This document shows, one piece after another, positions 4,638-63,550 of a stretch of DNA of 64,000 nucleotides. The DNA lies in contig NZ_LZOZ01000003.1 of NCBI RefSeq assembly GCF_001679485.1, forward strand, positions 1-64,000. The letters are read 5' to 3'. The position numbers and the translations under genes were made by a program. The notes beneath the pieces were generated by a model. That model was not told the origin of the DNA and did no database searches. It saw only the letters and a list, made by a program, of their open reading frames with translations. The stretch is from Haemophilus sp. CCUG 60358. Lineage in GTDB: Bacteria; Pseudomonadota; Gammaproteobacteria; Enterobacterales; Pasteurellaceae. Positions within the stretch are counted from its first letter, which is position 1, and the number at the start of each line of letters is the position of its first letter.

Positions 4638-4649
4638 ATGGTAGTAAGA

Positions 4650-5324: not shown

Positions 5325-5340
5325 TCTATCTTAAAGCGTA

Positions 5341-5366
5341 AAATGCGGTCAAAAATGACCGCATTT
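5341..5366. terminator. Bidirectional terminator between gph and the methyltransferase
   Basis: AAATGCGGTC (5341-5350) / GACCGCATTT (5357-5366), an uptake-signal-like inverted pair carrying A instead of G at the third base, with T runs usable on both strands. It separates two convergent genes. Confidence 0.8.
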
Positions 5367-5370
5367 TTTC

Positions 5371-6343: not shown

Positions 6344-9300
6344 ATGTTTCAAACTTTTCGTGGCTCACCCGCCCTTTCTGAATTCCGTATTCAAGGCTTA
6401 ATGCAAAAATTCCAACAAAATCAATTACCAGTAAAATCGGCTTATGCGGAATATTTGCATTTTGTGGAATTAAATCGACCGCTTGTTAGCGAGCAGGAAG
6501 CAAAACTAAAAGCATTGTTACATTATGGTCCAACTCTGGCTGAACATGAAGCCAAAGGTGAAACCTTTATCGTGATTCCACGCGTTGGCACGATTTCTTC
6601 TTGGTCTTCTAAAGCAACGGATATTGCGCATAACTGTGGTTTAAGTGAAGTGGAGCGTATTGAGCGTGGTTTGGCGTATTATTTTGAGTTAAGCCAACCG
6701 ATTGATGAAAAAACAACAGAAAAATTGACCGCACTTTTACACGACCGAATGATGGAAACCGTGGTGCGCAATCCGCAAGATGCTGAGATCTTATTCCGTC
6801 ATCAAGATCCGAAACCGTTTAAAACCGTGGATATTTTAAAAGGCGGACGTGAAGCGTTGGTGACAGCCAACGTAGAATTAGGTTTGGCACTGGCAGAAGA
6901 TGAAATTGATTATTTGGTGGAAAACTTTACTCAATTAGGGCGCAATCCGCACGATATTGAACTTTATATGTTCGCGCAAGCCAACTCTGAGCACTGTCGC
7001 CATAAAATCTTTAATGCCGATTGGATTATTGATGGCAAAAAACAGGATAAATCCCTGTTTAAAATGATTAAGAATACCTTTGAGAAAACCCCTGATTTCG
7101 TGCTTTCAGCCTATAAAGATAATGCTGCAGTAATGGAAGGCTCAAAAGTCGGTCGTTTCTTTGCAGACCAAGATGGGCAATATCGTTATCACAATGAAGA
7201 TGCACATATCTTAATGAAAGTGGAAACCCACAACCATCCAACCGCAATTTCACCATTCCCGGGTGCTGCAACAGGTTCAGGCGGTGAAATTCGCGATGAA
7301 GGTGCAACGGGTCGTGGGGCAAAGCCAAAAGCAGGTTTAACCGGTTTCTCGGTATCTAACTTAGTGATCCCAAACTTTGAACAACCTTGGGAAAATCCAC
7401 TCTCCAAACCAAACCGTATTGCTTCAGCCTTAGATATTATGATTGAAGGCCCATTAGGTGGTGCAGCATTTAACAACGAGTTTGGTCGTCCTGCGTTATT
7501 GGGGTATTTCCGTACCTATGAAGAGAAAGTCAATAGCTTCAATGGTGAAGAAGTGCGCGGTTATCACAAACCGATTATGTTAGCGGGCGGTATCGGTAAT
7601 ATTCGTGGCGAACACATTCAAAAAGGCGAAATTCCAGTTGGTGCTAAATTGATCGTCTTAGGCGGCCCAGCGATGAACATCGGTTTAGGCGGAGGGGCAG
7701 CGTCTTCTATGGACAGTGGTAAATCAAAAGAAGATTTAGATTTTGCCTCAGTTCAACGCGAAAACCCAGAAATGGAACGCCGTTGCCAAGAGGTGATTGA
7801 CCGATGCTGGCAATTAGGCGCAGAAAACCCAATCCTCTTTATCCACGATGTGGGCGCGGGCGGTTTATCCAATGCGATGCCTGAATTGGTGCACGATGGC
7901 GAACGTGGCGGTAAATTTGACTTACGTTCCATCCTTTGTGATGAAAAAGGCATGTCACCATTGGAAATTTGGTGTAACGAATCGCAAGAACGTTATGTCT
8001 TAGCGGTTGCGCCAGAAAAACTCGAATTATTTACCGCACTTTGTGAACGTGAGCGTGCACCGTTTGCGGTCATTGGTGAGGCAACGGAAGAGAAACATTT
8101 AACCTTGCACGATAGTCATTTCGACAATAATCCAATTGATTTGCCAATGAATGTATTATTAGGCAAAACCCCGAAAATGACGCGTGAGGTTTCGTCAAAA
8201 ACTGTCGAAAATCAACCGCTTGCAACAGAAAATATTCAATTAAAAGAAGCCTTCCATCGCGTATTACGCTTACCGGTGGTGGCAGAAAAAACTTTCTTAA
8301 TCACCATTGGTGACCGTTCGGTAACGGGTATGGTAGCGCGCGATCAAATGGTCGGCCCATGGCAAATTCCGGTGTCTGATGTGGCCGTCACAACTGCATC
8401 ATTAGACAGCTATCACGGCGAAGCTATGGCAATGGGTGAACGTGCACCTGTGGCATTATTAGACTTTGGGGCTTCTGCACGTTTAGCGGTGGCTGAATCT
8501 ATTACTAACATTGCGGGCACCAATATTGGCGATATTAAACGCATCAAACTGTCTGCAAACTGGATGTCTGCAGCGGGTCATGGTGGTGAAGATGCAGGCT
8601 TATATGAAGCGGTAAAAGCGGTAGGTGAAGAACTTTGCCCTGCGTTAGGCATCACCATTCCAGTGGGTAAAGACTCTATGTCGATGAAAACCACTTGGGA
8701 AGAAAATGGCGAGAAAAAATCCGTAACAGCTCCGCTTTCTTTAGTGATTTCATCTTTTGCGCGCGTGGAAGATGTCCGCAAAACCGTGACACCTCAATTA
8801 CGCACAGACAAAGGCGCAAGCCGTTTATTATTGATTGATTTAGGCGAGAGAAAAAATCGCTTAGGTGCGACCGCACTTGCGCAAGTGTATAAACAATTAG
8901 GTGACAAACCGGCTGATGTGGTGAATGTTACTAAACTGAAAAACTTCTTTGATGCGATGCAGGCATTGGTGGCAGAACGTAAATTATTAGCTTATCACGA
9001 CCGTTCAGACGGTGGTTTAATTACCACACTTGTAGAAATGGCGTTTGCGGGTAACTGCGGTGTGGATGTGGATATTTCTGCATTAGGCGATAATGATTTA
9101 TCCGTGTTATTCAATGAAGAATTAGGTGCGGTGATCCAAGTATCAGAAAGTGAATTAAGCGCCGTGCGTGAGGTATTAAAAGCCCATGACTTGCTTGGCT
9201 TAACTTATGAACTCGGTTCTGTCAGCTTAGAAGATCGTTTTGAAATCACTCGAGGCAGCAAAAAACTATTAAGCGAAAAACGCTCTGAATTACGTAGTAT

Positions 9301-10237
9301 TTGGGCAGAGCTCACTCACCAAATGCAACGCTTACGTGATAATCCAGAATGTGCTGACCAAGAATTTGAAGCGAAAAAAGCAACAGACAACAAAGGTTTA
9401 TCCGCTCACTTAACCTATGATGTGAATGAAGATATTGCCGCGCCGTACATCAGCAAAGGCGTGAAACCAAAAGTGGCAGTATTACGTGAACAAGGCGTAA
9501 ACAGTCATGTTGAAATGGCTGCGGCTTTTGACCGTGCAGGTTTTGCCGCAATTGATGTTCACATGAGCGATTTAATGGCGGGTCGTTACAACTTAAACGA
9601 CTTCAACGCGATGGTAGCTTGTGGTGGTTTCTCTTACGGTGACGTATTAGGTGCAGGTGGTGGCTGGGCGAAATCCATTTTATTTAACCCACAATTACGC
9701 GATCAATTCAGCCAATTCTTCGCCAATGAAAACACCCTTTCATTAGGCGTATGTAACGGCTGTCAATTTATCTCCACCCTTGCGGAAATCATCCCAGGTG
9801 CAGAAAATTGGCCTCGTTTCGTGCGTAATAAATCAGAGCGTTTTGAAGCGCGTGCCGCGATGGTGAAAATCAACGACACCAACTCATTATGGTTTAAAGG
9901 CATGGCAGGTTCACATATGTCGATTGCGGTTTCTCATGGTGAAGGTCGCGTAGAATTCAAAACACTTGAGAATTTGACCGCACTTCAAGCGCAAAACTTG
10001 ATTGTGGCGCAATATATCGACAGCCATTTAAACGTGACTGAAACTTATCCTGCCAACCCGAATGGTTCGGTATTAGGGATTACTGCAATTTCTAACGTAG
10101 ATGGTCGTATCGCTGCGATGATGCCACACCCTGAGCGTGTATTCCGTGCCGTGAGCAACTCATGGTACCCAGAAGATTGGTCTGAAGATGGCGCTTGGAT
10201 GCGAATTTTTAGAAATGCGAGAGTGAATTTTAAATAA
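6344..10237 (+). CDS. purL: Phosphoribosylformylglycinamidine synthase
   Basis: The large single-chain FGAM synthase (1297 residues, as in other gamma-proteobacteria), fourth step of purine synthesis: FGAR + glutamine + ATP to FGAM. The N-terminal synthetase half has the [20 protein letters not shown] motif. The C-terminal class I glutaminase has the nucleophile Cys1137 in GVCNGCQF and the His/Glu pair in MPHPERVF. It contains uptake signals at 6728, 8033, 8870 and 9977. A diverged copy of its last ~95 codons recurs at 11151-11436. PurR control is indicated by the upstream operator. Confidence 0.98.
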
Positions 10238-10253
10238 TGTGAGATTGCTCACA
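10238..10253. promoter_or_regulatory. Perfect CRP-type palindrome directly after the purL stop
   Basis: TGTGA-N6-TCACA starts on the base after the purL stop codon. It is conserved in the second purL tail (11437-11452), with one change in the spacer. Its role at this copy is unclear because the purL terminator and ~185 bases separate it from the next gene. Confidence 0.5.
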
Positions 10254-10270
10254 GAAAATTAATTAAAAAT

Positions 10271-10303
10271 AAGAGATACAACTAAATTGGTATCTCTTTT
10301 TTA
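10271..10303 (+). terminator. purL terminator
   Basis: AAGAGATAC (10271-10279) pairs GTATCTCTT (10290-10298) and is followed by T residues. Confidence 0.85.
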
Positions 10304-10454: not shown

Positions 10455-11066
10455 TTGCTAGCTAATATTGTTGCGCCATTGCAACGTCAATTTATTAACT
10501 TTATCCGCATTGCGATTTGTGTGGTGATGGTTTGGATTGGAGGTTTAAAAGTTTGCCAATATGAGGCAGATGGTATTGCACACTTTGTGTCAAATAGTCC
10601 TTTCTTAAGCTTCCTTTACAAAAACGGCGCAAATGAAGTGACAAATGATAAGGGTGTTTTAGTGAAAGAATATACCTTATATAAAAACCCTGAAGGCAAA
10701 ATGGTTGCAAAAAATATTGAATGGCATAAAGCCAACGGCACCTATACCGCTTCTTATATTATAGGCGCAATTATTGTGACAATTGGTATTTTAGTATTAG
10801 CAGGAATTTGGTCTCCGACACTCGGACTATTTGGAGGCTTGCTCACGTTTGGTATGTCGATAGTCACGCTGTCGTTCCTGATATTTACGCCAGAAACCTG
10901 GGTGCCGAATTTAGGTGGAGACTTCCCAACACCTAATTATGGCTTCCCATATCTCTCAGGTGCTGGCCGACTCGTGATTAAAGATATTATTATGATGGCA
11001 GGCGGCTTAGTTGCTGCAGCAGAATGTGCGAAACGTTATTTAGAGAATAAAAAGCAATTTGCTTAA
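10455..11066 (+). CDS. YkgB/DUF417-family inner-membrane protein, start region probably frameshifted
   Basis: About 203 residues with four hydrophobic segments and the family landmarks MVWIGGLKVCQYEADGI, NSPF, TLSFLIFTPETWVP and GFPYLSGAGRLVIKD, as in E. coli YkgB. The function of the family is unknown; relatives are linked to chlorine/redox stress in E. coli. The start is odd. A good AGGAG site and ATG (10438) open a different frame that stops after seven codons, and the conserved frame can begin only at a TTG (10455) too far from that site. One missing base near 10453-10457 would explain this. It lies between the two purL tails. Confidence 0.6.
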   Translation: MLANIVAPLQRQFINFIRIAICVVMVWIGGLKVCQYEADGIAHFVSNSPFLSFLYKNGANEVTNDKGVLVKEYTLYKNPEGKMVAKNIEWHKANGTYTASYIIGAIIVTIGILVLAGIWSPTLGLFGGLLTFGMSIVTLSFLIFTPETWVPNLGGDFPTPNYGFPYLSGAGRLVIKDIIMMAGGLVAAAECAKRYLENKKQFA

Positions 11067-11078
11067 TTGCGTTATTTT

Positions 11079-11114
11079 AAAAGGCTTGCTGAGATAAATG
11101 GCAGGCCTTTTTGT
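11079..11114 (+). terminator. Terminator after the YkgB-family gene
   Basis: AAAAGGC ... GCCTTTT imperfect hairpin with a TGC/GCA inner stem, followed by TTTTTG. Confidence 0.65.
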
Positions 11115-11150
11115 TATTAAGAGATACAAACCAATAACAAAGAAAAGAAA

Positions 11151-11436
11151 TAGAATTCAAAACTCTTGAAAATTTGACCGCACTTCAAGCTAAAAACTTG
11201 ATTATGGTACTGTATATCGACAGCTATGTAAATGTAACTGAGACCTATCCAGCCAACCCGAATGGCTCGGCATTAGGTTTACCGCGATTTCTAACGTGGA
11301 CGGTCGTATTGCCGCGATGATGCCTCACCCAGAACGAGTATTCCGTGCCGTGAGTAACTCATGGTATCTGGAAGATTGGTCTGAAGATAGCGCGTGGATG
11401 CGAATTTTTAGAAATATGAGAGTGAATTTCAAATAA
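11151..11436 (+). pseudogene. Diverged partial copy of the purL 3' end
   Basis: The segment aligns base for base with 9951-10237 of purL at about 85% identity by hand count. That covers the last ~95 codons, and the match runs on about 25 bases past the stop through the CRP-type palindrome. Differences are mostly at third positions, and a one-base deletion near 11280 breaks the frame. The retained uptake signal (11177-11185) matches purL 9977-9985. It has no start and cannot encode a working enzyme. It abuts the DUF262 gene, as the true purL end would in a different genome arrangement. Confidence 0.93.
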
Positions 11437-11486
11437 TGTGAAATTGCTCACAGAAAATTTAATAAAAAATAGATAATATGTCCCCT
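11437..11486 (+). promoter_or_regulatory. Putative CRP class II promoter of the DUF262 gene
   Basis: TGTGA-N6-TCACA at 11437-11452, inherited from the purL tail, is followed by a TAATAT -10-like box at 11474-11479. A start near 11486 would put the CRP centre at -41.5. A short AGATA/TATCT stem with a T-rich tail (11471-11499) may instead be the donor purL terminator. The promoter reading is inference. Confidence 0.4.
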
Positions 11487-11514
11487 ACTATCTGTTTTTA
11501 TTGGAGAATATATA

Positions 11515-13278
11515 ATGAATTTTAATGCGGAACCTAAAATTATACAGGATATCTTAAGTTTAGAGAGAGAGTATGTTGTACCAAGATATCAAAGAGAATA
11601 TTCTTGGGAGGAAGAAGAACAGATCCAGGAATTTTGGGAGGATATTAATGAACAGATTGATTATGAATGTACCCCATTCAAAGCTAAGGAATATTTTATA
11701 GGGTCATTAGTTTTAATAAAAGATACAGATTCAAAATATTATATTATTGATGGGCAACAAAGAATTACAACGATAACTATCTTTTTATCTGCTTTGGTTA
11801 ATATTGGAGATGAATTGGCTAAAACAGCGCAAAATGGAAAGGAATACGAAAAATTCAGTAATACCTGTTATAGATACATCGAAGGAAAAGATACAAATGA
11901 TGATCCATTTTTCAAATTAAAAAGTGAAAACAATAGTGAATTCTTTCCTAATGAAATACAATTTAGAAAAAAGAATAAAGCATCTAAACATAGTATTGAT
12001 CTTTCGCCTCTTGAAAATAAGAGGTTACATAAGGCCTATAATTTCTTTTATAATAAAATTAAAGATGAAATAGCAAATGGCAATGGAAAAAATGACCCTT
12101 TGGTTTTTTTGCAGGTTTTACGAGAGCAGTTAAAGCTGTGTGAAACAATTTATATCACGGTAGACAATAAGAAAGATTCACAAAAGATATTTCAAACTTT
12201 GAATGCTAAAGGAAAAAATTTAGAGTATATTGATCTTATAAAAAATGAATTATTTTCTGTTTTAGATTCTACTCATCCCAATGATTTTGCAAAGGAAAGT
12301 TGGATTAGTATAAAAGAAAATATTCAGAGTATTAAAAATGAAACATTAACCTACTTTTTCTATCAGTATTGGAATGCAAAGTACAAGAGAGCTTCTGAGT
12401 CTGATATTTATGGAAGTTTTCTAGATGAGGTGGAATGCAGTGAAGAAAAATATAATGAGTTTTTGCTTGACTTATTAGATTCGTCACAACAGTATCTAAA
12501 GATAGCATTACCTAATAAAGAAGACTGGAAGAATTTGGAGCATAAGGAGATTTATGAATCGCTAAAAAAATTAGAGGTTTTTAATATTAAAATAGCAAGA
12601 CCGTTAATTCTTGTGTTGATTCAGTTGTGGAATAATAAAAGAATCAGTTTAAAAAATTTAAAAGATATTCTGAATAAAATATCAATATTTCATTTTATTC
12701 ATTCTGGAATAACATCCTCTCCTAAATCAGGTCTAGAAAGAAGCTATGCTACATATGCCAGAAGAATTTATAAATGCACTGGAGATAATAAAGAAATAGT
12801 AACAATTATAAGAGAGTTAGAGGAGAAACTTAAAGAAAAACTAAAACTAATACCAGAATCTCTTGTTTTAGATAAGTTTACGAAACTCTCTTTCTTGAAA
12901 GATAAAGAAACGATTAACCTCATATTTATGTATCTTGAGATGTTTGTGTATCGAAATACTGGAGAATTATCTATAAACAATATGAGTTTAGAGCATATTA
13001 CTCCGCAATCTCAAATAAAAGGAAGTACTAAGAAAGCTTGGGAGCATAAAATAGGTAACCTTATACCCTTAGGACCAGAAATCAACTCAAAATGTGATTC
13101 GAAAGGTTTTAAAGCTAAATTAAAATTATTTGAAGAGTCAGAATTAGAGATGGTTAGAGATTTTGTTTCTAAGTATAGAAATAGTGCAGTTTGGGATCAG
13201 AAATCTTCTGAAAAACGAGCAAAAGAGTTGGCTAGTCTGTTTTATAATTCTATTATTGCTACTTTTGGCATGAAGTAG
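11515..13278 (+). CDS. DUF262-DUF1524 protein, GmrSD/SspE-like candidate defence nuclease
   Basis: A 587-residue protein in two parts. The N-terminal DUF262 (ParB/sulfiredoxin-like NTPase) part has VPRYQREYSW (22-31), IGS (62-64), DGQQR (79-83, nucleotide binding) and IFQTLNAKGK (225-234). The C-terminal DUF1524 His-Me-finger nuclease part has EHITPQ (493-498), GNL (514-516) and Asn524. This architecture is that of type IV modification-dependent enzymes (GmrSD) and phosphorothioate-sensing SspE. No modification genes lie nearby, so the trigger is unknown. Ribosome site GGAGA at 11503. The gene is clearly richer in A and T than its neighbours, suggesting transfer. Confidence 0.8.
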   Translation: MNFNAEPKIIQDILSLEREYVVPRYQREYSWEEEEQIQEFWEDINEQIDYECTPFKAKEYFIGSLVLIKDTDSKYYIIDGQQRITTITIFLSALVNIGDELAKTAQNGKEYEKFSNTCYRYIEGKDTNDDPFFKLKSENNSEFFPNEIQFRKKNKASKHSIDLSPLENKRLHKAYNFFYNKIKDEIANGNGKNDPLVFLQVLREQLKLCETIYITVDNKKDSQKIFQTLNAKGKNLEYIDLIKNELFSVLDSTHPNDFAKESWISIKENIQSIKNETLTYFFYQYWNAKYKRASESDIYGSFLDEVECSEEKYNEFLLDLLDSSQQYLKIALPNKEDWKNLEHKEIYESLKKLEVFNIKIARPLILVLIQLWNNKRISLKNLKDILNKISIFHFIHSGITSSPKSGLERSYATYARRIYKCTGDNKEIVTIIRELEEKLKEKLKLIPESLVLDKFTKLSFLKDKETINLIFMYLEMFVYRNTGELSINNMSLEHITPQSQIKGSTKKAWEHKIGNLIPLGPEINSKCDSKGFKAKLKLFEESELEMVRDFVSKYRNSAVWDQKSSEKRAKELASLFYNSIIATFGMK

Positions 13279-13378
13279 TCTACAATGTGACTTGTAAAAG
13301 CTCTGTTTCTTTACATATGATTAGCCACGAATTCATGCAGAGAAGCATGCATTATTAATTTGATAAAGGAATATAGAA

Positions 13379-13420
13379 AAAGCGGCCAAAAATCACAACG
13401 AATTTTGACCGCTCTTTTTA
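13379..13420. terminator. Convergent terminator between the DUF262 gene and glpQ
   Basis: AAAGCGGcCAAAAAT ... ATTTTGACCGCTCTTT hairpin, a degenerate uptake-signal pair with T tracts on both strands. The 100 bases between the DUF262 stop and this hairpin (13279-13378) show no gene, only a short ATGC/GCAT inverted repeat. Confidence 0.7.
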
Positions 13421-13437
13421 TTACTTTTACTTACGTA

Positions 13438-14523
13438 TTATTTTTGTTTTTTCAAAAACTCAACGCCAGTGTCTGGGAAGTCGGTGAATACACCAGTTGC
13501 GCCAGATTTATTCAATAACGCATCGTACATTTGATTTACGTCAGTGAAGAATTCAGGTAACGCATCTTTACGTACGGTGTATGGGTGTAATTCCACTTTG
13601 TATTGTGCGAGTTCTTTCACTAATGGGGTGTACACGATGTTGCCTGGTTTAGATTTTTCTTTATCTACTAACATGTACCAGCCTGGACCAACGCCATCAG
13701 CATATTTTACCACTTCTGCCATTGCACCTGGTTTGAACATCCAATCGTAATCGTAGTTCACCCATTTGCCTTTCGCATCTTTTTCTTCAGTCTCATGCCA
13801 GTCGGTGTATGCCACTAATTGAACAAGTTTTAAATCCATGCCCATTTTTGGTAGCAATTCGTTTTTGATACGTTTTAACTCATTGAAGTCGAAGGTTTGT
13901 AAGTAAACCATGTCAGATTTCTTGTCGTAACCGTATTTTTTCAATACTTTAAGGGTTTCAACTGCAATGTCTTTGCCATTTTGGTGGTGGAACCAAGGGG
14001 CTTTGATTTCAGGATAGATACCTACTTTTTTACCAGTCGATTTTTCTAAACCTTGGATAAATTCCAATTCATCTTCAAAAGTATGGATTTTGAAGTGTGA
14101 TTTCCAAAGTGGGAAACGGCCCGGATATACTGCAACTTGTTTACCGTCTTTAGTTTCAAAGTTTTCAGTCATATTTAAACTTTGAATTTCTTTTAAGGTG
14201 AAGTCGATTACATAGTAACGACCATCTTTACGATGACGATTTGGGAATTTTTTCGCCACGTCAGTTAAGCCGTCTAAGAAGTGGTCATGGATAACAACTA
14301 AACGACCATCTTTTGTCATCGCTAAGTCTTGTTCTAAGTAGTCTGCATGTTGTGCAAATGCAAGCGCTTTAGACTCAAGTGTATGCTCTGGTAAGTAACC
14401 ACTTGCACCACGGTGAGCAATGATAATTTTGTCTGATTTCATAGTGTCCACAGAAGAGTGTGCGCTACATCCTGCAAGTACGCCTGCAGCTAATAAAGAA
14501 AGCGCTAAAGTTTTGAGTTTCAT
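13438..14523 (-). CDS. glpQ: Glycerophosphodiester phosphodiesterase, protein D lipoprotein
   Basis: Hydrolyses glycerophosphodiesters such as glycerophosphocholine to sn-glycerol 3-phosphate. It has a lipoprotein signal with lipobox LAGC (Cys19) and the GDPD motifs AHRGASGYLPEHT (His37-Arg38), LEQDLAMTKDG and HDHFLDGLT. At 361 residues it is close to H. influenzae protein D (Hpd, 364), a surface lipoprotein that supplies choline for phosphorylcholine decoration and serves as a vaccine carrier. It is the promoter-distal gene of a run with the propeller protein gene and glpT, so its product GlcP feeds the GlpT transporter. Confidence 0.97.
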   Translation of the reverse strand: MKLKTLALSLLAAGVLAGCSAHSSVDTMKSDKIIIAHRGASGYLPEHTLESKALAFAQHADYLEQDLAMTKDGRLVVIHDHFLDGLTDVAKKFPNRHRKDGRYYVIDFTLKEIQSLNMTENFETKDGKQVAVYPGRFPLWKSHFKIHTFEDELEFIQGLEKSTGKKVGIYPEIKAPWFHHQNGKDIAVETLKVLKKYGYDKKSDMVYLQTFDFNELKRIKNELLPKMGMDLKLVQLVAYTDWHETEEKDAKGKWVNYDYDWMFKPGAMAEVVKYADGVGPGWYMLVDKEKSKPGNIVYTPLVKELAQYKVELHPYTVRKDALPEFFTDVNQMYDALLNKSGATGVFTDFPDTGVEFLKKQK

Positions 14524-21604: not shown

Positions 21605-22696
21605 ATGCAAAAAATCTTCAAGATTTCCTTACTTGCTGTGCTTTCATCTCTTGCAGTAAACAGCTTCGCCAGCACTGCAGAAGTGAAAGTGCTTGAGCCT
21701 CAATTAAATTACCAACAACTTCTTACTCAAAGACAGGTTGTGGATGAGTTGCTTGAACAAGCGGTGAAAATTCAAAACTCACCGGCTCGTGTTTCAAATG
21801 CAGGTTTTACCGCGAAACTTCCTTCTAATATGGAGCGTATTGCGGATCTTTTATTAGAAGCGTATAAGCTTGAGCCTTATCGTGTGGATTTTTTGTTTGG
21901 TGCAGCGAATGCCAATATTTATAACGGCAATACCGATAAAGCTATTGAGCTTTACCAAAAAGTACTTGATGTCGCGCCAGATGATGTGAAAGCACATACT
22001 TACTTAGCTGCATGGAATCGTTTTAAAGGCAACCAAGCGGAAGCGACAAAACATTTAGATCGCTTAAAACAACTTTCCCCAGAAAGCGCAAGCAAATTAG
22101 AAAAAGTCTTTGCAGTGATTGATAAAGCGGCTAATCAGCCAATTACCGATAAACTCGAAACTAAGTTACCGGCACAATCAGCGATTATTACATTGGGCTA
22201 CGCTTTAAATCCAGATGGCAGCATGCATGATATTTTGGTGCAACGTTTAGAGAAAACCTTAGAAATTGCGAATCAAAATCCAGATGCGTTAATTATTGTG
22301 ACAGGCGGAGTGCCACAAAACAATAAAACCGAAGGGGATTTAATGAAGCAATGGTTGATTGAGAAAGGCGTTGATGCAAGCCGTATTTATTCGGATAACT
22401 ATGCGCGTTCAACAGTCGAAAATGCGCTTTTCTCTCGTTACTCTTTAGCGAAACACAAAATCAAACATGCCGTGTTGATTAGTTCAGGTAGTCATGTTCG
22501 TCGCGGACAAGCATTATTTGAAATTGCGACGCAAGAATCCGGTCCACAAGGTCTTGTGATTGAAACCGTAGCAGCGTTAGATAAACCGTTAGATCAGTTA
22601 CAAAAAATTACGGAGAAAGACTTGCTGGGTATTTATCGCGATAGCTTAAAAACAATGGGATTGCCAATGTTTAACAGTGGGGCATTACAAGATTAA
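21605..22696 (+). CDS. Exported DUF218 (YdcF/ElyC-like) protein with TPR segment
   Basis: A 363-residue protein with a signal peptide (ends SFA-STA). A tetratricopeptide-like stretch follows (LEPYRVDFLFGAANANIYNG, AIELYQKVLDVAPDDVKAHTYLA, about 90-150). The C-terminal DUF218 domain has AIITLGYALNPDG, VTGGVPQNNKTEGDLMKQWL and SSGSHVRRGQALFE. DUF218 proteins (SanA, YdcF, ElyC) affect the cell envelope, but no reaction is established for this type. Here the domain follows a cleavable signal, so it should be periplasmic. Single gene with its own ribosome site (GGAG) and terminator. Confidence 0.75.
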   Translation: MQKIFKISLLAVLSSLAVNSFASTAEVKVLEPQLNYQQLLTQRQVVDELLEQAVKIQNSPARVSNAGFTAKLPSNMERIADLLLEAYKLEPYRVDFLFGAANANIYNGNTDKAIELYQKVLDVAPDDVKAHTYLAAWNRFKGNQAEATKHLDRLKQLSPESASKLEKVFAVIDKAANQPITDKLETKLPAQSAIITLGYALNPDGSMHDILVQRLEKTLEIANQNPDALIIVTGGVPQNNKTEGDLMKQWLIEKGVDASRIYSDNYARSTVENALFSRYSLAKHKIKHAVLISSGSHVRRGQALFEIATQESGPQGLVIETVAALDKPLDQLQKITEKDLLGIYRDSLKTMGLPMFNSGALQD

Positions 22697-59896: not shown

Positions 59897-60739
59897 ATGG
59901 GAATTGCCAATAGAAAGCAGCGAAAACAACAAATTGGTGTGAGTAAACAACAAGATAACCTCTATTTTGTTTGGCTAGATGAATTACACAAAGTTCAATC
60001 TATTTGTTTAAATACGCAACAAAAAGATATTTTTTCCCAGTTATTGCCTCATTTGCCACAAAAAAACAGTCAATGCTGTTTTGTTGGCGCCATTTCGCCC
60101 CACTTAACTTGGTCTAAAACGCTCATTCTACCACAAACACTCAATGCCCAGGAATGTGAACAACAATGTCGTTTTATTTTGCAAAAAGAATTACCGATTC
60201 CTTTGGATGAATTATGGTTTGATTATCTTACCACGCCATTAAAACAAGGTTTTCGTTTGGATATAACGGCTATTCGACAAGAAAGCGCCAATGCAGAATT
60301 AGCAAAATATCTACCGTTAAAATTGACCGCACTTGATTTACTGAATCACAGTATTTTACGCGCATTTTATGCCATTTTAGGTCAAGAGCCGATTAACACC
60401 TTATTTTTATATCAAGATCAACAAGGATGTCTCGCCGTTTGTGAACGCTTACAACAACGACAAGTTTTGCAATCTCAAGGTGATTTATCTGAACTTTATC
60501 AACAGTTTATTCAACGCTTTTCCGAAACGATAGAACAGGTTTATGTGTATCAAACGCCCGATATGTTGAATTCACACACAATCGAATTACAGCCTAAGGA
60601 TTGGCAGCGTATCGAAACAGATTTTCCTTTCATTGCTTTAGGTAATGCACTTTGGCAAACCGATTTAAAGCTAGTGGATTTATCTTTAAAACCACCCGCA
60701 CTTTTGCCTTTAGTTAATCGGGAGAGTGGTGATGTTTAG
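59897..60739 (+). CDS. comA: Competence protein ComA (PilM-like)
   Basis: First gene of the DNA-uptake operon comABCDEF. A 280-residue actin-fold PilM-type protein expected to form the cytoplasmic part of the type IV pilus-like uptake machine; sequence conservation is low, so the call rests on operon position and the FVWLDE / LTALDLLN type segments. Ribosome site AGGAAAG. It overlaps comB by 8 bases and carries an uptake signal at 60326-60334. Confidence 0.9.
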   Translation: MGIANRKQRKQQIGVSKQQDNLYFVWLDELHKVQSICLNTQQKDIFSQLLPHLPQKNSQCCFVGAISPHLTWSKTLILPQTLNAQECEQQCRFILQKELPIPLDELWFDYLTTPLKQGFRLDITAIRQESANAELAKYLPLKLTALDLLNHSILRAFYAILGQEPINTLFLYQDQQGCLAVCERLQQRQVLQSQGDLSELYQQFIQRFSETIEQVYVYQTPDMLNSHTIELQPKDWQRIETDFPFIALGNALWQTDLKLVDLSLKPPALLPLVNRESGDV

Positions 60740-61244
60740 CCTTAATTTATTGCCTTGGCGCTTAGAACAACATCAAAAGGCCTTTCGTCGTTTTATGTGG
60801 CAAGGTTTTATTTGGCTAGCTTGTTCAGTTTTGATTGTTGTTGGATTGAACCAATTCAATGAACAACAAGCGCAAACCCTAAATCAGACAAAAGAAAAAC
60901 TGACACAAATAACTCATCAAGTCCATCAGAAACGCATTCAGGTTCAGCAACTACAAAGTAGTCTGAAAGAAATGAATGAGCTGACAGAAATGGATACAGA
61001 ATATGTGTATCGCTTGCTTAATTTATTAAGTGAGCTGCCATTAAAACAGGGCGAGTTAGATGAATTTACGCTCAATGCTAAGCAAATTGTCCTTTCAGGC
61101 ATGACAGAAAGCCAACAAGAGTTTGAGGAGATACATCAATTTCTCAAACGCCATTTTACAGAGGTTAACTTAACTAAGTTTCAGCCAGTGCAACAGCAGT
61201 TATTTTTTCAATTTGATATTCATTTATCGGAGTCTGTGCAATGA
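60732..61244 (+). CDS. comB: Competence protein ComB (PilN-like)
   Basis: A 170-residue bitopic inner-membrane protein: FSLNLLPWRLEQHQK N-terminus typical of PilN, a hydrophobic helix (~20-40), then a coiled coil rich in Gln/Glu (about 43-85) and a small periplasmic domain. ATG 60732 has GGAGAG five bases before it and overlaps comA; GTG codons at 60726 and 60729 are less likely. It overlaps comC by 4 bases (ATGA). Confidence 0.9.
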   Translation: MFSLNLLPWRLEQHQKAFRRFMWQGFIWLACSVLIVVGLNQFNEQQAQTLNQTKEKLTQITHQVHQKRIQVQQLQSSLKEMNELTEMDTEYVYRLLNLLSELPLKQGELDEFTLNAKQIVLSGMTESQQEFEEIHQFLKRHFTEVNLTKFQPVQQQLFFQFDIHLSESVQ

Positions 61245-61783
61245 GGAACTTTATCAATGAGCTTGTTCAAAAAAGTGCACAAAGTTGGTTTGGGAGATGG
61301 CTTCGATTACCTCAAATGGTCCATACTGCCTTTTGGTTGAGTGCATTAAGTGCGGTCATCTTTTTACCTGTTTTTCATTACGTTGAAAATAGCAACGAAC
61401 GACATCGGCTTGACGCAGAATTGAGTTTGCAGCAGCAAGAGTGGGATAAACAGGAAAAGATTTTACAAACCTTAAGGCAAAAGTCAGACAGCCGACAACT
61501 TTCTCCAGAATTAGCTAATTCTGTGTTGCCGATTAATCAGCATGTACAGGCGTTACTAAATGGGCGACTTCGAGCGTTGGATTTACGTTGGGATTTTTCT
61601 CAACATACGTTGTTGCATTTGTCATTGCAAGGCTATTTTGTCGATTTACAGCAATTTTTGACCGCACTTTTAAACGATGTTCCTACACTTTCTTTAACTC
61701 AATTAAACATTGAGAAATTAGATGAAGAGGAAAATGCTTCTATTACATGTGAGTTAATTTTCCAATTAAATAAGGACAAATAA
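61241..61783 (+). CDS. comC: Competence protein ComC (PilO-like)
   Basis: A 180-residue bitopic protein with one membrane helix (~30-48), a coiled coil and a periplasmic PilO-like domain; it should pair with ComB. Joined to comB by an ATGA overlap and to comD by a one-base stop/start overlap. Uptake signals at about 61349 and 61660. Confidence 0.9.
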   Translation: MRNFINELVQKSAQSWFGRWLRLPQMVHTAFWLSALSAVIFLPVFHYVENSNERHRLDAELSLQQQEWDKQEKILQTLRQKSDSRQLSPELANSVLPINQHVQALLNGRLRALDLRWDFSQHTLLHLSLQGYFVDLQQFLTALLNDVPTLSLTQLNIEKLDEEENASITCELIFQLNKDK

Positions 61784-62166
61784 TGAAAAAGCTTTTCTTA
61801 ATCTTGATAGCGTTTTTTTCTGTATCAGCATTTTCGCAAGATCCTTTTGATCGTAAACAAAGAGAACAAACCGAATATCCAAAAGAGGGGCTCACCCTAC
61901 CGCCGGTGTTGGCTTGCGTGTATTCGGAGCCGAGACTGGCGGAGGAACGCCCATTGGCTCAGCTACATATTGTGGGAGTCGTGCAATATGGTAAACAGGC
62001 AGAAGTGTTATTTAATGATGATGGGCATATTCTGTCTGTTCAAATCGGGCAGAGGATTGGAAAGGAAGGCTATTTAATCGAAAAAGTGAGTAAAAACAGC
62101 GTGGCGCTTCAAAGTTATAAAGCAGGGCAATGTGAACAAACGACCTCAATCATAATGAGATTTTAA
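61783..62166 (+). CDS. comD: Competence protein ComD (PilP-like)
   Basis: A 127-residue exported protein (signal peptide ending AFS-QDP) with a PilP-like beta domain (LPPVLACVYSEPRLAEERPL, HILSVQIGQRIGKEGYLIEKVSKNSV). PilP proteins link the inner-membrane alignment complex to the secretin. Unlike typical PilP it has no lipobox cysteine at the cleavage site. Confidence 0.88.
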   Translation: MKKLFLILIAFFSVSAFSQDPFDRKQREQTEYPKEGLTLPPVLACVYSEPRLAEERPLAQLHIVGVVQYGKQAEVLFNDDGHILSVQIGQRIGKEGYLIEKVSKNSVALQSYKAGQCEQTTSIIMRF

Positions 62167-62167
62167 A

Positions 62168-63550
62168 ATGATAAAGCAGAAAATAAAAACAAAGTGCAGT
62201 CAGTTTTTAATGTGTTTTTTGATCCTATGGACAACTTACTCAGCGGCAGAAAATCGCGTATTTTCACTTCGCTTAAAGCAAGCTCCCATGGTGGCGACAC
62301 TCCAACAACTTGCTCTTGAGCAAAATGCTAATTTAATGATTGATGATGAGCTAGAAGGAACGCTTTCATTACAATTAGATAACGTAGATTTTGATCGTTT
62401 ATTGCGTTCTGTCGCAAAAATCAAAGGGCTCTCTTTTTATCAAGAAAATAATATTTATTATTTGGGTAAGCCTTCTCAACATGAACAATATGCAGAGAAA
62501 ATGACAGAACCTATGGCGATTAGTGGGGAAAGTTTGCCTAGTGAAACACCACTTGTGAGTACAACGATTAAACTGCATTTTGCCAAGGCCTCTGATGTGA
62601 TGAAATCTTTAACAACTGGTAGTGGTTCTTTGCTTTCACCTAGCGGCACAATTACATTTGATGATCGAAGCAATGTGTTACTGATTCAGGATGATGCACG
62701 TTCTGTCAAAAATATTAAAAAATTGATTGCAGAACTGGATAAACCCATTGAGCAAATTGTCATTGAAGCACGTATTGTGACGATTACCGATGAAAGCCTA
62801 AAAGAATTAGGTGTGCGTTGGGGTATTTTTAATCCTACTGAGGCTGCACATCGAGTAAGTGGAAGTCTAGATGCAAATGGCTTTAGTCATATCAGTGATA
62901 ATTTAAACGTGAATTTTGCGACAACGGTCACGCCGGCCGGCTCATTAGCACTTCAAGTGGCTAAAATTAATGGCCGATTATTAGACTTAGAATTGACTGC
63001 ACTTGAACGTGAAAATAATGTAGAAATTATTGCGAGCCCTCGCTTACTCACGACTAATAAGAAAAGCGCAAGCATTAAACAAGGGACAGAAATTCCTTAT
63101 GTGGTGACGAATGGGAAAAATGATACACAGTCAGTAGAGTTTCGCGAGGCTGTCTTAGGATTGGAAGTTACGCCGCATATTTCTAAGGATAATAATATCT
63201 TATTGGATTTATTAGTCAGTCAAAATTCTCCGGGAAATCGTGTGGCTTACGGGCAAAATGAAGTCGTATCCATTGATAAACAAGAAATTAATACGCAAGT
63301 GTTTGCCAAAGATGGCGAAACGATTGTATTGGGGGGGGTATTCCACGATACGATCACGAAAGGTGTCGATAAAGTGCCATTATTAGGGGATATCCCGGGT
63401 ATTAAACGCTTATTTAGTAAGGAAAGCGAACGTCATCAAAAGCGAGAGCTTGTAATTTTTGTAACCCCTCATATTTTGAAACAAGGTGAAAGAATGGAAA
63501 TGGCTAAGAAAGAAAAGCATTTTAAGCAAATTGAAAAAGCGAAAAAATAA
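62168..63550 (+). CDS. comE: Competence secretin ComE (PilQ-like)
   Basis: Outer-membrane secretin (460 residues) forming the DNA/pilus channel. Signal peptide, an N-domain with FSLRLKQAPMVATLQQLALEQN, a KH-like N1 domain (KLHFAKASDVMKSL), and the C-terminal secretin domain (IVIEARIVTITDESLKELGVRWG; VPLLGDIPGIKRLFS; ELVIFVTPHIL). It starts one base after comD. Confidence 0.95.
   Translation: MIKQKIKTKCSQFLMCFLILWTTYSAAENRVFSLRLKQAPMVATLQQLALEQNANLMIDDELEGTLSLQLDNVDFDRLLRSVAKIKGLSFYQENNIYYLGKPSQHEQYAEKMTEPMAISGESLPSETPLVSTTIKLHFAKASDVMKSLTTGSGSLLSPSGTITFDDRSNVLLIQDDARSVKNIKKLIAELDKPIEQIVIEARIVTITDESLKELGVRWGIFNPTEAAHRVSGSLDANGFSHISDNLNVNFATTVTPAGSLALQVAKINGRLLDLELTALERENNVEIIASPRLLTTNKKSASIKQGTEIPYVVTNGKNDTQSVEFREAVLGLEVTPHISKDNNILLDLLVSQNSPGNRVAYGQNEVVSIDKQEINTQVFAKDGETIVLGGVFHDTITKGVDKVPLLGDIPGIKRLFSKESERHQKRELVIFVTPHILKQGERMEMAKKEKHFKQIEKAKK

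Follow-up and report, generated by a model that had tools for sequence, protein, structure and literature searches.

Members of the GmrSD nuclease superfamily join a DUF262 domain, which in studied relatives acts as modification sensor and nucleoside triphosphatase (NTPase), to a DUF1524 domain that acts as the nuclease (PMC11411939, PMC10952713, PMC8565348). In the two-protein system TgvAB, mutation of the DUF262 NTP site, or of the nuclease histidine or asparagine, abolishes protection, and HEC-06, a GmrSD-like candidate in PADLOC, is reported to function independently (PMC11411939). Defence systems of Escherichia coli are found mostly on mobile elements at hotspots (PMC10121019), and at these hotspots, as at cDHS1 and cDHS2 of Pseudomonas aeruginosa, core genes stand beside changing defence cargo, sometimes with no clear mobile element (PMC10250203, PMC10121019). 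Here we describe a lone DUF262-DUF1524 gene at positions 11515-13278 (forward strand) of a 64,000-nucleotide stretch of Haemophilus sp. CCUG 60358 (contig NZ_LZOZ01000003.1), which we call the window. We favour, at a probability of roughly 0.7, an account in which this gene encodes a single-chain restriction nuclease, HEC-06-like and of the GmrSD superfamily, and sits in a one-slot defence locus for which the purL 3' end is the anchor.

The open reading frame (ORF) starts at an ATG with a GGAG motif 9 bases ahead of it and encodes 587 residues. PF03235 (GmrSD_N, the DUF262 domain) matches residues 10-247 (11542-12255; E 7.7e-40) and PF07510 (GmrSD_C, the DUF1524 His-Me finger domain) residues 458-574 (12886-13236; E 3.4e-12), both over the curated cut-offs. 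The motif DGQQR, taken as the NTP site, lies at residues 79-83 (11749-11763), and EHITPQ at residues 493-498 (12991-13008) contains the catalytic-type H494, with a GNL at residues 514-516 and N515, N524 and K535 further on. DGQQR and these four residues are invariant in all 60 aligned rows; QR 26-27 and F226 with N230 (an FxxxN motif) are also invariant in the alignment. The predicted model has two domains joined by a helical linker and its fold matches DndI, SspE and BrxU. Of the superfamily hallmarks, among which modification-dependent cleavage also counts, those of sequence and fold are present: QR, DGQQR and FxxxN in DUF262, H...N...H/N in DUF1524, and the two-domain fold. Domains, residues and fold together support the assignment of the protein as a stand-alone member of this known superfamily and a candidate restriction nuclease.

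A sequence-only reading of the window had given the coordinates and the three motifs exactly and had proposed an anti-phage gene akin to GmrSD and SspE. Family models, the suggested structural comparison with SspE, the invariant catalytic-type residues and a sporadic distribution all agree with that proposal, with protection against phage as the step that is inferred. The gene is AT-rich as described, with a GC fraction of 0.289; the window as a whole has 0.399, and purL, the rclC-like gene and glpQ lie at 0.39-0.44. Its description as compact did not survive, since 565-605 residues is the normal length among 120 listed homologues, two shorter ones (392 and 496 residues) excepted. Given the roles that studies of related proteins support, sensing and NTP hydrolysis for DUF262 and DNA cleavage for DUF1524, we propose that the DUF262 domain would bind NTP at DGQQR and inspect incoming DNA, that a mark alien to the host, in the likeliest case a modified base, would trigger NTP hydrolysis and a domain rearrangement, and that the His-Me finger (H494/N515/N524) would then cut or nick the marked DNA.

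Among described systems HEC-06 is the nearest by profile: PADLOC model PDLC04157 matches residues 11-575 (268.7 bits, E 2.4e-80), covering both domains of a protein of similar length. The HEC-06 name stems from genes inside Hma clusters, whereas the window gene stands alone between core-type genes (an RclC-like one and, in the opposite orientation, a glpQ-like one); we therefore use the label 'HEC-06-like' only. GmrSD and Eco94GmrSD, and BrxU (HEC-05), are distant, at 13-14% identity in structural alignment. BrxU sits in a BREX island, and a by-eye reading of window ORFs of at least 150 residues, made with no model scan, recognised no BREX, restriction-modification, dnd, ssp or glucosyl-modification gene, in line with the earlier description of the gene as lone and lacking the last three kinds. 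The same neighbours bear on the idea that the protein is half of a TgvAB-like pair whose partner lies elsewhere or has been lost. DUF262 is present in TgvA as well as in TgvB, and each is inactive without the other (PMC11411939), and a Fic-, PIN- or Sir2-like gene can be seen by eye beside some distant relatives; the window neighbours are nevertheless unrelated core-type genes, a 44% identical relative likewise lies between core-type genes and a 28% relative is carried by a 5.6-kb plasmid, all of which makes a missing partner very improbable.

The closest folds to the predicted model are those of DndI (9JFL) and SspE. The EHI...GN...N stretch of DndI aligns with the EHITPQ region, and Y25 aligns with Y25 of DndI, a tyrosine reported as the phosphorothioate sensor (PMC11662687). 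The protein might accordingly be imagined as a phosphorothioate-sensing effector that partners dnd or ssp modification genes at another genomic location, which we consider unlikely. DndI has dndBCDE alongside and shares its transcript with dnd genes, and it is toxic to cells without the mark (PMC11662687), such that a lone DndI-like enzyme without dnd would self-destruct; this logic is unlikely to apply to the window gene, because the by-eye reading of the window recognised no dnd gene and the DndC model TIGR03183 matched 0 of 21 relatives, a weak negative in that no control genome passed the cut-off either, and one that does not extend to ssp genes, which were not searched. Y25 was set aside as proof of phosphorothioate sensing, phenylalanine taking its place in 41 of the 60 aligned rows. 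SspE differs in length (771 residues against 587) and in its ssp linkage, its best profile match extends over roughly 123 N-terminal residues, and by eye no sspABCD gene was recognised in the window, a reading made without ssp models.

PFLU4242 of Pseudomonas fluorescens is likewise a lone chromosomal gene with both domains, and once it is deleted two megaplasmids no longer impose a cost and the SOS genes fall back to the level of the ancestor (PMC8544851). Instead of a base modification, a nuclease of this kind would recognise some property of plasmids or of further foreign replicons, with DNA breaks and SOS induction as the outcome. The shared lone architecture makes plasmid conflict a real alternative, although the likeness to PFLU4242 is one of domain description, and homologues occur on plasmids themselves (187 plasmid records, every one below 60% identity), so that the family does not exclude all plasmids. 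We regard conflict with plasmids as possible, at distinctly lower probability than the restriction nuclease that we favour. The best plasmid homologue (34%) is on an Enterobacter plasmid with P2-like phage genes, beside portal and terminase genes, and is annotated there as three separate genes; in a small mobilizable plasmid of Klebsiella pneumoniae (5640 bp) the 28% homologue overlaps the end of the replication gene.

A full-length 587-residue copy 97% identical to the protein exists in metagenomes (P0001, 32 member sequences), and the sole relative above 90% found in named genomes is that of H. quentini K068, which flanks rclC on the same side as in the window. The H. quentini DNA is 96.8% identical over window positions 11460-13417 and carries two frame breaks, which may be sequencing errors because purL of the same draft is broken as well. 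Its downstream neighbours (here and throughout, gene names such as purL and glpQ were assigned by eye) are an insertion sequence (IS)-like fragment and psiE/hemYX-like genes in place of glpQ. The purL-rclC flank is 91.8% identical between the two, against 96.8% for the gene, a difference that fits transfer between lineages. The broken copy, and the turnover of the site between species, could suggest a decaying relic or a harmless passenger without present function; we would be surprised if this were so, given that the window frame is intact, the conserved residues are all kept, the 97% metagenome copy is of full length and the dN/dS ratio is 0.23-0.33, well below 1 (two methods, C-terminal two thirds).

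More distant relatives are sporadic. A profile search found matches at E 1e-20 or better in 26 of 140 Pasteurellaceae genomes, and within the genus distant DUF262 relatives are present in three genomes (G003, G004 and G009), away from the site between rclC and glpQ. We inspected by eye the context of nine more distant relatives: uvrB- and nrdA-like genes flank the 44% relative of G012, polysaccharide clusters enclose those of G095 and G098, and core-type genes lie on both sides in G105, while relatives adjoin a Fic-like gene near valS in G070 and G097 and a PIN-like gene in G065, and have Sir2-like genes nearby in G128. The G031 relative lies immediately behind purL, ahead of rpsL-like genes.

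In the genus we compared one genome per species, and in all 11 the left flank matches the window to about 11108-11159 and the right flank resumes from 13369-13402. The left border is near the terminator-like hairpin of the rclC-like gene (11079-11111, forward strand), with the match running on to 11423 in G010 and 11323 in G007, and the right border is a dyad with uptake-signal-like arms, a terminator-like hairpin on the glpQ side (13378-13420; fold z -5.3 for 13360-13430), beyond which the glpQ-like gene (13438-14523, reverse strand) is the conserved right neighbour. The interval measures 995-2844 bp, with 11 different lengths in the 11 genomes. It is one of ten adjacent-gene intervals measured as a control, with several values missing. 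Five of the others vary by 18 bp or less where measured, glpB-glpC shows one difference (17 bp), purL-rclC spans 146-221 bp, one artefact aside, and the interval from glpC to the gene at 21605 is 70-71 bp or a negative artefact; the negative values, seen for two intervals in some genomes, presumably reflect duplicate or overlapping matches. The universal vertical presence without defence links that would speak against a defence gene was not found: none of the 11 genomes, including the nearest (G001, which shares 32% of 31-letter words with the window), has the DUF262-DUF1524 gene at this site, all hold other cargo, and some of that cargo is of defence type.

This cargo comprises a Schlafen/AlbA_2 protein with HATPase (G010), a DUF262 protein with a 245-residue partner (G008), a retron II-A-like pair with its reverse transcriptase split over two frames (G007), a membrane protein with an OmpA domain (G009), related membrane proteins at 34% identity (G001 and G006), a 284-residue protein with a weak CorA-like match (G011), a SIMPL protein (G004), a cold-shock-domain protein with an IS3-like element recognised by eye (G005), and proteins without family match (G002 and G003). 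The 179-residue G002 cargo (2359-2898 of that locus) has by eye a caspase/CHAT-like look (LATHG ... GTCETG), with no Pfam, NCBIfam or PADLOC match. Six further purL-rclC loci hold a TIGR04141 protein (G111), the cold-shock protein of G005 (G119), a 145-residue cupin-like protein (G112 and G117, by eye) or a transposase-like gene (G155 and G156, by eye).

The signs of recombination noted by the sequence-only reading proved sharper than it had claimed. The core gene purL (6344-10237, forward strand, 1297 residues), whose C-terminal 217 residues are matched in 131 of 140 Pasteurellaceae genomes, is followed by the RclC-like membrane protein gene (10455-11066, forward strand; Pfam DUF417, 2.2e-72; NCBIfam RclC 252 bits, under its 275-bit cut-off), which is found in all 11 genus genomes and in 60 of the 140. 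Behind this gene lies a decayed duplicate of the purL 3' end (11151-11471, forward strand), consisting of the last 287 bases of purL and 34 beyond the stop, 87% identical to 9951-10271 with a one-base gap that breaks the frame. A perfect palindrome TGTGAN6TCACA, which we take to be CRP-site-like, abuts the purL stop (10238-10253), followed by a hairpin with a T run, and recurs in the remnant (11437-11452), 62 bp ahead of the DUF262-DUF1524 gene. We tried the purL copy as a mark of the arrival of this gene and rejected it: of 18 other purL-rclC loci, 7 likewise show a second purL tail behind rclC, together with unrelated cargo (G002, G003, G007, G008, G010, G112 and G117), and the H. quentini copy has no tail in front. 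Because the tails recur with such cargo, the scar most likely dates from the event that inserted the rclC-like gene. Neither tail of G007 is more than a remnant, the genuine purL of this genome being located elsewhere. Since the remnant includes the stop-abutting palindrome, the gene begins 62 bp past a purL tail much as in direct purL-cargo junctions elsewhere; on the simplest reading, cargo would originally have lain directly behind purL and the rclC-like gene would later have been inserted between them with a duplicated purL tail. The palindrome is present in most purL-rclC loci. As a general integration target or regulator it was rejected, because among 103 further loci it occurs, with 0-1 mismatch, at 4 of the 46 AT-rich ones and at none of the remaining 57.

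Because the G031 relative is directly behind purL, we surveyed purL flanks across the family, scoring as AT-rich any that contained a 600-bp stretch below 30% GC within the first 1.3 kb, a score that is not proof of foreign origin. In 20 genomes chosen for genus spread, with G031 included after its cargo was known, 12 flanks were AT-rich (11 of 19 without G031), compared with 0/19, 1/19, 0/20 and 0/20 behind four other window genes taken as controls in the same genomes and named by eye (ligA-, mrcA-, tex- and dnaG-like), a total of 1/78 with 2 of the 80 control loci too short, or 1/58 without dnaG, which lies in an operon with a constrained 3' flank. Of the 131 genomes with purL, 24 fell outside the wider survey (the 18 purL-rclC loci, G001-G011, G017, G111, G112, G117, G119, G155 and G156, together with 5 contig ends and 1 broken purL). 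The other 107 loci, the 20-genome set included, gave 47 AT-rich flanks among 104 once 3 short ones were removed, and 46 among 103 after G068, with masked bases, was dropped. In G024, where the flank is not AT-rich, 130 bases across the purL 3' end are repeated (87%) directly behind purL.

The cargo so collected, 75 ORFs of at least 100 residues and GC below 0.32 plus the window protein (76 proteins, 26,148 residues), was compared with 60 proteins adjoining the control genes (15,730 residues). At 1e-5 the cargo matched 268 PADLOC models and the control set 8, figures that count models, many of them overlapping, and not proteins: the window protein alone accounts for 23 and the reverse transcriptases for dozens. 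Leading among the 25 PADLOC models listed are HEC-06, AbiU, PDC-S71, PD-T4-2 and Orf5, with at most four members each, and the 25 Pfam families listed out of 48 include at least 6 GmrSD_N, 4 AIPR, 3 NACHT and 3 reverse transcriptase proteins; the absence of integrases is beyond the reach of these listings. Of the 45 loci with cargo ORFs, 24 hold a single ORF of at least 100 residues. Clustering of 91 proteins (the 75 family ORFs, 15 genus ORFs of at least 130 residues and the window protein) gave 66 clusters, which hold known types (retron II-A, AbiU-, AIPR-, NACHT- and HEC-06-type), many unnamed families and a few that are not defence-like. A number of families are shared between the rclC-glpQ site and the position immediately behind purL in other genera: retron II-A (G007 and G029), a DUF262 pair (G008 and G066), the cold-shock protein (G005 and G018, 73%), DUF262-DUF1524 (the window and G031, 26%) and the 284-residue family (G011 and G079, two genera, 79%), which is a good candidate for a new defence gene.

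Conserved flanks with differing cargo, and enrichment of that cargo in defence families over control loci, are features of a core defence hotspot, and the P. aeruginosa example is the closest published idea to the purL slot. The rclC-glpQ interval, at 1.0-2.8 kb and often with one ORF, is far smaller than cDHS1, whose median is 26 kb (PMC10250203), and the purL slot is anchored on one gene end across a family, unlike the single-species cDHS1. We hold at even odds the broader proposal that the purL 3' end is a family-wide, one-slot Pasteurellaceae defence locus without an integrase of its own, in which AT-rich cassettes are swapped by flank recombination in transformable hosts, sometimes leaving duplicated purL tails, and of which the window nuclease is one occupant. 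Small AT-rich cassettes would replace one another there, the probable route being homologous exchange through the conserved flanks in hosts competent for DNA uptake; the authors of the P. aeruginosa study also suggest flank recombination, there through phage transduction (PMC10250203). The sequence AAGTGCGGT occurs 38 times in the window against 0.5 expected. We take it to be the Haemophilus-type uptake signal, and from it and the words shared with G001 we place the host, as a likely assignment, in the parainfluenzae group of Haemophilus. At 59897-63550 the window also holds a com-type competence operon, with DNA-uptake pilus genes recognised by eye, in keeping with natural transformability.

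Several observations weigh against the favoured account. The predicted fold resembles DndI and SspE, both linked to phosphorothioates, more than it does BrxU, possible partners can be seen by eye in G070 and G097 (Fic-like), G065 (PIN-like) and G128 (Sir2-like), the H. quentini copy is broken in two places, and we are aware of no phage of this host whose DNA is modified. With regard to the site, 57 of the 103 purL flanks are not AT-rich, the cargo of G001, G002, G003, G006 and G111 has no PADLOC match, the SIMPL protein of G004 is not defence-like, single cargo ORFs match DUF417 or glycosyltransferase, and transformation is a presumed route of exchange. Because several cargoes thus lack a defence match or are not defence-like, 'defence slot' is a statement about enrichment only.

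Among the open-licence literature matches listed we found no report of a Haemophilus or Pasteurellaceae defence hotspot or of a purL insertion site, which is not proof of novelty; neither 'purL' nor 'hotspot' occurs in the main text of the Actinobacillus pleuropneumoniae defensome paper, and 'purL' is likewise missing from the main texts of the hotspot papers on E. coli and P. aeruginosa (PMC10121019, PMC10250203). With this protein a well-studied nuclease superfamily, in which lone forms often have no defined trigger, gains a member from Haemophilus, and the site is a larger result than this fairly ordinary gene. A slot of 1-3 kb behind one housekeeping gene, reused across a family in which natural transformation occurs, would be a simple address for new defence genes, it makes testable the idea that competence, and not mobile elements, reshuffles immunity, and, if the slot reading is true, undiscovered defence systems would lie among the unnamed cargo families. 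Elsewhere in the window there is a second variable site, the interval 5325-5370 between the genes at 4638 and 5371, which is longer by 1.2-2.2 kb in 4 of the 9 genus genomes measured.
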